NCBI GenBank assembly: GCA_023954415.1
Contig: JAMLIB010000005.1
Coordinates: forward strand, 62,001 to 126,000
Direction: 5' to 3'
Origin: Trueperaceae bacterium
GTDB taxonomy: Bacteria; Deinococcota; Deinococci; Deinococcales; Trueperaceae
Length of the DNA stretch: 64,000 nt
How positions within the stretch are numbered: the first letter of the stretch is position 1; each line of letters starts with the position of its first letter. The notes under the pieces were generated by a model that saw nothing but the letters and a program-made list of their open reading frames with translations, did not search any database and was not told where the DNA came from. This document shows positions 53,998 to 56,128 of this stretch, piece after piece. The position numbers were made by a program, and so were the translations under genes.

Positions 53998-54779
53998 GTG
54001 ACGTGGCCAGCGCGCCCGCCCCTGTCAGAGCCGACGCCCCGCCGACGGGCCAGCGGATCATCGAGATCGAGGGCCTCAACAAGTGGTACGGGGAGTTCCA
54101 CGTCCTGCGCGACATCAACCTGTCCGTCAACCGGGGCGAGGTCGTCGTCGTCATCGGGCCGTCCGGTTCGGGCAAGTCGACGCTCATCCGGTGCATCAAC
54201 CGCCTCGAGGAGCACCAGCAGGGCAAGATCGTCGTCGACGGCGTCGAACTGACCGACGACGTGCGCGCGATCGACCAGATCAGGCGCGAGACCGGCATGG
54301 TGTTCCAGTCGTTCAACCTCTTCCCGCACCTAACGGTGCTCGACAACATCACGCTCGCCCCGACGCGCGTGCGCAAGTGGAAGAAGTCGAAGGCCGAGGA
54401 GCGCGCCCGCTTCTTCCTCGAGAAGGTCGGCATCCCCGAGCAGGCGCACAAGTACCCGGGCCAGCTGTCCGGCGGGCAGCAGCAGCGCGTGGCCATCGCG
54501 CGCTCGCTCACGATGGAGCCGAAGGTCATGCTCTTCGACGAGCCGACGAGCGCCCTCGACCCCGAGGTCATCGGCGAGGTGCTGCAAGTGATGGTCAACC
54601 TCGCCAAGGAAGGCATGACCATGGTCGTGGTCACCCACGAGATGGGGTTCGCACGCGAGGTCGGCGACAGGGTCGTCTTCATGGACGCCGGTCAGATCGT
54701 GGAGGTCGGCAGCCCCGAACACTTCTTCACGAACCCGAAGGAGGCGCGCACGCGCTCCTTCCTGTCCAAGATCCTGTGA
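53994..54779 (+). CDS. amino acid ABC transporter ATP-binding protein (AapP-like)
   Basis: The 261-residue ATPase of the importer. After a Pro/Ala-rich start the domain has Walker [11 protein letters not shown] (about 55-64), Q-loop [17 protein letters not shown], signature [15 protein letters not shown], Walker [15 protein letters not shown] and H-loop [10 protein letters not shown], all as in polar amino acid transporters (GlnQ/HisP type). GTG 53994 has GGAGG 7 nt upstream. Confidence 0.95.
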
Positions 54780-54914
54780 GCGCGGCGGAGCCCGGATGCC
54801 GTGGGGGGCGTCGGGAGGCGCGCGGATCGCGCCCGGCAGTGCGACGGGCGCGCGTCCGGAGAACGCTATCAGCGTCCCGCGCGGAATGTCACATGAGCGC
54901 CGCGCCGGCGCGCC

Positions 54915-54962
54915 TAGACTAGCGGCATGAGCGAGAGCTCCTCCCCGAGGGAAGGCATATGA
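54915..54962 (+). CDS. leaderless-type promoter and 11-codon mini-cistron coupled to pilT
   Basis: TAGACT (54915-54920) is followed after exactly 6 nt by ATG 54927. The frame has 11 codons (MSESSSPREGI) and its TGA (54960-54962) overlaps the pilT ATG as ATGA. The ORF itself is 54927-54962. TAGACT is also the -10 box of recF and sufS, which supports the promoter; expression of the peptide is untested. Confidence 0.45.
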
Positions 54963-56128
54963 GCGACGCGGCCGGCGGTCGTGGCATAAGGATCGCGGAC
55001 GTGCTGCGCAACATCGTCGCCAAGGGCGCGTCCGACATCCACCTGCAGGCGGGGGCGCCGCCCTACATGCGCGTGGACGGCGAGCTGTACCCGTTCGAGG
55101 GCGTGCCGACGCTGACGCCTGAGCAGACGGAGCAGATCGCCCTCGCGATGATGAGCGAGTCGCAGCGCGAGGTCTTCAGACATAGGCACGAGGTCGACTT
55201 CGCGTTCACCATCCCGAACATCGCCCGCTTCCGCTGCAACGTGTTGCGCCAGCGCGGCTCCGTCGGGGTCGTGATGCGCGTCATCCGCGACGCGATCCCG
55301 AGCTTCGAGTCGCTCGGCCTCCCGACCGGCGTCGTCACGGAGCTCGTCAGCCAGCCGCGCGGCCTAGTCCTCGTCACAGGTCCGACGGGCTCTGGGAAGA
55401 CGACGACGCTGGCCGCGATGATCGACTTCATCAACCGGCGCTTCGCTCGCAACATCATCACGATCGAGGACCCGATCGAGATCCTCCACCGGAACCAGAA
55501 GAGCCTGGTCATCCAGCGCGAGATCGGCCTCGACACGGCAGACTTCGTCGGTGCCCTCAAGTTCGCCATGCGCCAAGACCCGGACGTGATCATGGTCGGC
55601 GAGATGCGCGACAAGGAGACGGTCGAGGCGGCCATCTCGGCGGCCCAGACGGGCCACCTCGTGTTCAGCACGCTGCACACCCTCGACGCCATCCGCACCG
55701 TGAACCGTATCATCGACTTCTTCCCGCCGCACGAGCGCGACCAGATCCGCATCCTGCTGGCGGAGTCGCTCCTCGGGATCTTCAGTCAGCGCCTGCTGGC
55801 GCGAGCCGACGAGGGCGGCCGCGTGCTGGCGCTCGAACTGCTCATCAACACGCCCCTCATCCGCGACTACATCAAGGACGAGGAGAAGACGCCGCTCATC
55901 AAGGAAGCGCTCATGCAGGACAACCTGCGCGGCATGCAGACGTTCGACCAGCACCTCGTCGAGCTTTACCTGGCCGGGCGCATCACGATGGAGGACGCGA
56001 CCTTCACGGCCACCAGCCCGCACGAGTTCAGGCTCATGGTCACCCAGCGGCAAGGCGGCGTCGGCTCGGACGAGCTCCGCGACGTCACGGGCGCGGGCAT
56101 GCACCCTTCGCGGGGCGGTCTGCGCTGA
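54959..56128 (+). CDS. pilT: type IV pilus retraction ATPase PilT
   Basis: The 389-residue hexameric ATPase depolymerises type IV pili for twitching and DNA uptake. The N-terminal domain has GASDIHLQAGAPPYMRVDGEL; Walker A GPTGSGKTT is at 141-149; the Asp box is IITIEDPIE; the His box is AQTGHLVFSTLHT; and the PilT-specific AIRTVNRIIDFFPPHERDQIR supports PilT rather than PilB. The last ~30 residues are an unconserved tail. No other pilus genes are adjacent. Confidence 0.95.
   Translation: MSDAAGGRGIRIADVLRNIVAKGASDIHLQAGAPPYMRVDGELYPFEGVPTLTPEQTEQIALAMMSESQREVFRHRHEVDFAFTIPNIARFRCNVLRQRGSVGVVMRVIRDAIPSFESLGLPTGVVTELVSQPRGLVLVTGPTGSGKTTTLAAMIDFINRRFARNIITIEDPIEILHRNQKSLVIQREIGLDTADFVGALKFAMRQDPDVIMVGEMRDKETVEAAISAAQTGHLVFSTLHTLDAIRTVNRIIDFFPPHERDQIRILLAESLLGIFSQRLLARADEGGRVLALELLINTPLIRDYIKDEEKTPLIKEALMQDNLRGMQTFDQHLVELYLAGRITMEDATFTATSPHEFRLMVTQRQGGVGSDELRDVTGAGMHPSRGGLR

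Follow-up and report, generated by a model that had tools for sequence, protein, structure and literature searches.

In the genome of a Trueperaceae bacterium, the gene encoding the pilus ATPase PilT is preceded by a putative leaderless mini-cistron of 11 codons whose stop codon overlaps the pilT start codon as ATGA. The anatomy of this start region, the leaderless promoter signature ahead of it, and the retention of both the ATG and the exact overlap while the length and peptide of the short frame change can be read directly from the letters of this and related genomes. A layout that is kept with differing peptides suggests a ribosome-delivery device of the mycobacterial kind (see below). The best reading, which we consider probable, is that ribosomes would load at the 5' AUG, translate the mini-cistron and re-initiate on pilT. 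Positions are those of the window, i.e., the whole stretch of 64,000 nt that was analyzed; genome-wide counts refer to the 3.2-Mb draft genome that contains it, to which, among named relatives, Deinococcales and Trueperaceae MAGs are closest.

The pilT start region and its promoter

The hexamer TAGACT (54915-54920, plus strand), a -10 element of the TANNNT class, is followed by agcggc and by an ATG at 54927, which opens the frame ATG AGC GAG AGC TCC TCC CCG AGG GAA GGC ATA TGA (54927-54962, plus strand; MSESSSPREGI). The TGA of this frame (54960-54962) and the pilT ATG (54959-54961) form a common ATGA (54959-54962, plus strand), and the frame, at 11 codons shorter than 50, differs in phase from pilT. 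When the window letters are read directly, the layout of hexamer, six-base gap, ATG, 11 codons and ATGA given for this site in an earlier note is correct to the base. The following frame (54959-56128, plus strand; 389 aa) encodes a PilT/PilU-family ATPase of type IV pilus retraction (TIGR01420, E 3e-147), and its neighbors are an ABC-transporter ATPase frame ending at 54779 on one side and a convergent rimO on the other. A Shine-Dalgarno (SD)-like sequence for pilT, GAGGGAAGG (54947-54955, plus strand), lies within the mini-cistron, and a TCACA element (54889-54893, plus strand), contained in GGAATGTCACA, is located 21 nt upstream of the hexamer. As a side observation, ATGAGCG occurs three times in this region, at 54893, 54927 and 54959 (spacings of 34 and 32 nt), and the mini-ORF and pilT have a common opening, ATGAGCGA; the mini-ORFs of two orthologous loci, L007 and L008, open otherwise.

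TANNNT ahead of start codons is a described leaderless promoter in Deinococcus-Thermus (Zhong et al., 2025, PMC12340547). In the present genome, TANACT-N6-ATG is found at 41 sites versus four for the reversed control, and a frame of at least 80 codons is opened at 38 of these 41 sites, all of which were read, some frames reaching the end of the stretch read; on these two counts TANACT-N6-ATG is the leaderless promoter signature of the genome. Short frames occupy the remaining three sites, namely the pilT mini-ORF, a 14-codon frame at an SSADH-like gene (see below), and a 10-codon frame on a 7-kb contig, where no frame of at least 90 codons starts near its stop. When the gap is 5 or 7 nt, 35 ATG sites, drawn from a listing of 100 out of 127 places, comprise 29 long and six short frames, and RTGA coupling is seen in none of these six. 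The leaderless start that had been proposed for the mini-cistron is backed by this promoter geometry, and the A of ATG 54927 is probably the first base of the message, a transcript start that we infer from the -10 spacing and the genome-wide enrichment.

The hexamer had also been described as the one used by recF and sufS. Frames resembling the two do carry it, but start codon and spacing vary: TAGACT-N6-GTG (minus strand, 10028) precedes a frame that we take, from its N-terminal sequence, to be RecF-like, and TAGACT-N8-ATG (10152) precedes one that we take on the same grounds to be SufS-like. By itself TAGACT is not enriched in the window (five occurrences versus 6.44 expected), and the meaningful signal is the -10 hexamer, the spacing and the ATG together. 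A scan of 54700-55000 for consensus -35/-10 promoters returned no match.

Retention of the overlap among pilT orthologues

Thirty-nine genomes of the family were searched, including that of the window, and 37 gave a PilT-family match. Counts refer to 29 orthologous loci that are 65-100% identical (L001, L005-L032); a 30th, in G029, is close to the edge of its contig and was added afterwards, and the other nine genomes have matches of at most 51% identity or none. Duplicates (L034-L037, L051), outgroups (L038, L039, L071), the locus at 51% identity (L033) and the remaining named loci stand outside the counts. An exact RTGA overlap with an out-of-frame mini-ORF is present in 11 of the 29 orthologues, from four genera (g1, g8, g11 and g14; loci L001, L005, L006, L007, L008, L011, L015, L016, L017, L018 and L019), so that the joining of mini-cistron and pilT survives in relatives. 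Two further loci have an inexact mini-ORF, whose stop lies beyond the pilT GTG in L009 and ends 8 nt short of the pilT ATG in L021. In six loci (L010, L012-L014, L022, L023) the start of pilT itself is an ATG 7-9 nt past the -10 element, and ten have no ATG at the leaderless position. In L032, the frame GTG AGG AGG TCG CCA TGA, of five codons from a GTG, ends on the pilT ATG; it was read as the Shine-Dalgarno sequence itself and excluded from the coupled count, and L031 has GCG at the place corresponding to this GTG. The locus of G029 (TAGACT-N7-ATG, eight codons, ATGA) fits the coupled layout, a modest test since it belongs to the same genus as L017. On the PilT tree the coupled state needs four changes, and well-supported branches force at least two of these. 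The earlier note had named disappearance of the short frame from close relatives as evidence against the arrangement, and this is not what is seen: all five same-genus loci keep a +1 ATG frame, four of them with an exact ATGA or GTGA.

Because the presence of an ATG in mini-ORF loci is partly a matter of construction, the promoter was picked again blind to the ATG, as TCACA-N20..23-TANNNT, in the 30 pilT loci. This pattern is present in 22 loci, with a gap of 21 or 22 nt in each. An ATG follows the -10 element at 5-9 nt in 19 of the 22 (four at 5, seven at 6, seven at 7 and one at 9), and none is found at offsets 0-4, 8 or 10; the three promoter loci without such an ATG are L020 (GTG at 7), L024 and L026. 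Thus, an ATG is kept at the presumed transcription start both where it is the start of pilT itself and where it is not. At the family level the device is dispensable, given the ten orthologues that lack it and the three promoter loci without the ATG. The TCACA element is too distant for a standard -35 and is possibly an activator site. Genome-wide, its promoter pattern is not enriched (four matches versus four in the control), and a TCACA regulon was dropped on this count, although the gap is exactly 21 in three of the four matches; one of two other TCACA sites lies ahead of a 244-aa ORF, and the second has no pilus gene nearby by eye.

Given an ATG at +1 and an RTGA at the pilT start, exact coupling has a null expectation of 0.26 with simulated spacers and 0.24 with shuffled real ones. 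It is observed in six of eight sequence-distinct lineages (P about 0.005 at a null of 0.26 each), which were defined after looking, have shared ancestry and are not fully independent; when same-genus lineages are merged except L009, four of six are exact (P 0.04). The distance from the ATG to pilT in the six exact lineages is 23, 29, 32 or 44 nt.

The short frame itself varies in length and peptide. Coupled mini-ORFs are 8, 10, 11 or 15 codons long and encode MSESSSPREGI, MRPVTGGGSR, MKRTWVRRAVSGDEP, MQCHDRRGSGT, MTLRPSLPLPILVAP and MASSEARA in the coupled lineages. Identity over codons 2-7 across the eight mini-ORF lineages (0.28) is that expected from composition (0.29), and all six variable codons inside two close groups change the amino acid; thus, the peptide is not the selected feature. 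Identity of the flanks between lineages is likewise at chance. What was found is the mycobacterial type of pattern, an architecture that is kept (11 of 29 exact, two inexact, plus G029) while the peptide diverges, and a conserved cluster of codons for a single amino acid, as in poly-Cys attenuators, is absent across the lineages. The suggestion of the earlier note that PilT could be controlled through the Ser-rich peptide or its AGG and ATA codons is not supported, given this lineage-to-lineage variation and the nonsynonymous changes, and codon sensing is unlikely because neither peptide nor rare codons are conserved. As for the two codons having been called uncommon, ATA is indeed rare (1.6 per 1000) but AGG only moderately so (7.9 per 1000), as counted in 35 long frames of the window (17,392 codons). 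In the same frames ATT (Ile) is nearly absent, with one occurrence versus 439 for ATC and 28 for ATA.

The anti-SD duplex of GAGGGAAGG has an energy of -8.1 kcal/mol (-7.5 on a shorter stretch). Mean anti-SD energies at pilT are -8.1 kcal/mol in the 11 coupled loci, -0.5 in the six direct leaderless loci and -8.2 in the ten others, two of which (L027, L028) have a weak SD; among coupled lineages it is strong in L007 and L011, and weak in L008 (-4.0) and L015 (-6.2). Outside the direct leaderless loci, therefore, pilT is usually equipped with an SD, and ribosomes leaving the mini-cistron would accordingly arrive at an SD-assisted start. Re-initiation is often aided by SD motifs that lie inside upstream genes (PMC6728339). 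The idea that translation opens a structure in which the pilT start is hidden found no support, accessibility being mixed across the nine folded loci (start unpaired 0.26-0.52); with no clear sequestration of the start region, there is no obvious need for coupling to open a structure.

Other candidate coupled genes in the genome

The pattern TANNNT-N6-ATG-N5..35-RTGA has 33 matches genome-wide versus seven in the control. In four of these matches the TGA is in frame without an earlier stop. Three of the four lead to long frames, i.e., pilT, a 409-codon frame that is presumably an aminotransferase and a 140-codon frame, and the fourth leads to a frame of 17 codons. The SSADH-like gene (L114 in this genome; best family TIGR01780, below the cut-off on a partial sequence) is a further coupled case beyond these four candidates, appearing in the list of 33 only through a shorter match, and its 14-codon leaderless mini-cistron ends in ATGA. 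This mini-cistron is exact in G000, G021 and G022 (L189, L190 and L191), that is, including the two nearest species. At the other 26 of the 29 family loci, 21 genes start 5-8 nt past a TANNNT and five show neither arrangement. In L191, whose coupling was confirmed separately, a TAGGCT-N7 also stands before the gene, and the mini-cistron holds TAG(A/G)CTCGG...CATG twice, as near-copies spaced by about 42 nt. To judge from this one locus, it looks as though a leaderless promoter-start module had undergone duplication, with the outer copy becoming the mini-cistron.

The other two long frames behave differently between close species. The +1 ATG of the aminotransferase-like gene (L224, L225, L226) is kept in three species, of which only G000 has an exact overlap; the 140-codon frame (L232, L233, L236) is coupled in G000 and G022, the ATG being lost in G021. 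The instability of these two couplings weakens the claim that every such overlap is selected. As far as these genome comparisons reach, pilT is the widely retained case of the predicted coupling, and conservation elsewhere is mixed.

Mechanism, rival explanations and known systems

Firing of the pilT promoter would yield an mRNA that begins at AUG 54927, on which a 70S ribosome would load as on other leaderless mRNAs of the phylum. The ribosome would then translate the 11 codons of the mini-cistron, terminate at TGA 54960 and, aided by GAGGGAAGG, re-initiate on the overlapping pilT AUG at 54959. The peptide would be a by-product, and what is kept would be the 5' AUG as entry point and the phase by which the ribosome reaches the start of pilT. 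PilT output would thereby be set below one per pass of the mini-cistron, such that the mini-cistron could set the dose of this pilus retraction motor.

A different role for the 5' AUG is unlikely, though less so than the other rivals: it could load ribosomes on standby, stabilize the mRNA or be the relic of an old start, with pilT initiating alone and the overlap incidental. Independent 30S initiation is possible because most coupled lineages have an SD-like sequence for pilT itself, and precedents come from E. coli, where the 5'-uAUG of ptrB raises downstream expression partly without translation of the uORF and where removal of the uAUG of rhaB, which opens an 8-aa leaderless ORF ending in ATGA, was without effect (PMC4965119). 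An indirect argument against this role is that the overlap is exact in six of eight lineages despite four different distances, and the overlap is also present where the SD is weak (L008, L015). That the overlap is an accident, which the earlier note had regarded as a real alternative, is very unlikely in light of the phase statistics (P about 0.005, or 0.04 merged). ATGA arises easily when the second codon begins with A, as in pilT, and an ATG may happen to follow TAnnnT; with RTGA at the pilT start in all coupled lineages, the right phase alone suffices (null about 0.26), merging leaves four of six lineages exact, and among the four in-frame candidates genome-wide one leads to just 17 codons and two are unstable between close species. 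These points have to be set against the ATG found 5-9 nt past the -10 element in 19 of 22 promoter loci, with flanks no more alike between lineages than by chance, the 41 versus 4 enrichment of the site, and the fit of G029, albeit from the genus of L017.

An attenuator in which stalling on Ser, AGG or ATA codons tunes pilT is highly improbable. The AGG and the ATA, the latter a rare codon, are kept in L001, L005 and L006, but other lineages have no Ser cluster or common residue pattern, the six variable codons are all nonsynonymous, no intrinsic terminator-like site was detected in 54700-55000, and no Rfam family matches 54700-55100 above its gathering score, the sole match scoring 17.6 bits versus 37.8 needed. 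An amino-acid attenuator was rejected on the lack of conserved codons, terminator-like site and Rfam family. We find it scarcely credible that the transcript has another origin, such as read-through from the ABC-transporter genes upstream, and that the ATG is therefore not 5'-terminal. The scan did find the interval from the ABC gene to pilT free of terminator-like sites; read-through is nevertheless compatible with a local start, the signature is enriched genome-wide, and the ATG stands 5-7 nt past the -10 element in 18 of the 22 promoter loci. A programmed frameshift from the mini-ORF into pilT was set aside by reasoning: the would-be N-terminal extensions share no sequence, and with an RTG of its own at the overlap, pilT does not need a frameshift.

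Leaderless mRNAs are common in Deinococcota and, to our knowledge, regulation through the leaderless start has been little described. As a broader and more tentative proposal, to which we give somewhat less than even chances, the 5' AUG of Trueperaceae may be a conserved ribosome entry around which genes alternate between direct and mini-cistron starts, the latter being recurrent, born by duplication (caught half-way at the SSADH-like gene) and long held at pilT. The pilT gene occurs in direct leaderless, coupled and leadered versions, with one promoter layout in 22 of 30 loci. This natural series makes 5'-AUG loading followed by re-initiation testable as a distinct route, with its cost or gain relative to a plain leaderless start.

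In E. coli, where leaderless mRNAs are rare (PMC9031893), the rhaB and ptrB 5'-uAUG mRNAs resemble the pilT layout in having a 5'-terminal AUG, a short ORF and an SD-led gene; rhaB shares even the ATGA after its 8-aa ORF but, unlike what is proposed here, tolerates loss of the uAUG (PMC4965119). Termination-reinitiation is also described for pairs of ordinary genes whose stop and start overlap, the upstream frame often containing an SD (PMC6728339), whereas the upstream frame in the pilT case is putatively leaderless and has 8-15 codons. The -10-adjacent leaderless genes of Deinococcus-Thermus likewise place TANNNT directly ahead of the start codon (Zhong et al., 2025, PMC12340547); that study treats the gene's own start codon, as opposed to the start of a mini-ORF, and the terms "short ORF", "small ORF", "pilT" and "Truepera" are absent from its main text. 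Among the matches listed in the part of the literature that was covered, no earlier report of pilT with leaderless coupling, or of leaderless genes in Truepera, was found. The closest parallel is in mycobacteria, where leaderless "coupled" small ORFs with RTGA overlaps, some with unconserved peptides, have been described (Shell et al., 2015, PMC4633059). Here as there, a short ORF that is leaderless, putatively so at pilT, has a TGA in common with the downstream RTG, and, in some of the mycobacterial cases, its placement and coupling are kept over its peptide; the mycobacterial case has transcript and ribosome-profiling support, whereas that of pilT comes from another phylum and is known from its sequence. 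With this architecture described for mycobacteria, and rhaB as a single-gene parallel, the kind is already known. The putative pilT mini-cistron is a new, widely retained case of it in Deinococcota and, unlike the mycobacterial coupled ORFs, one that has been traced across four genera at one gene.
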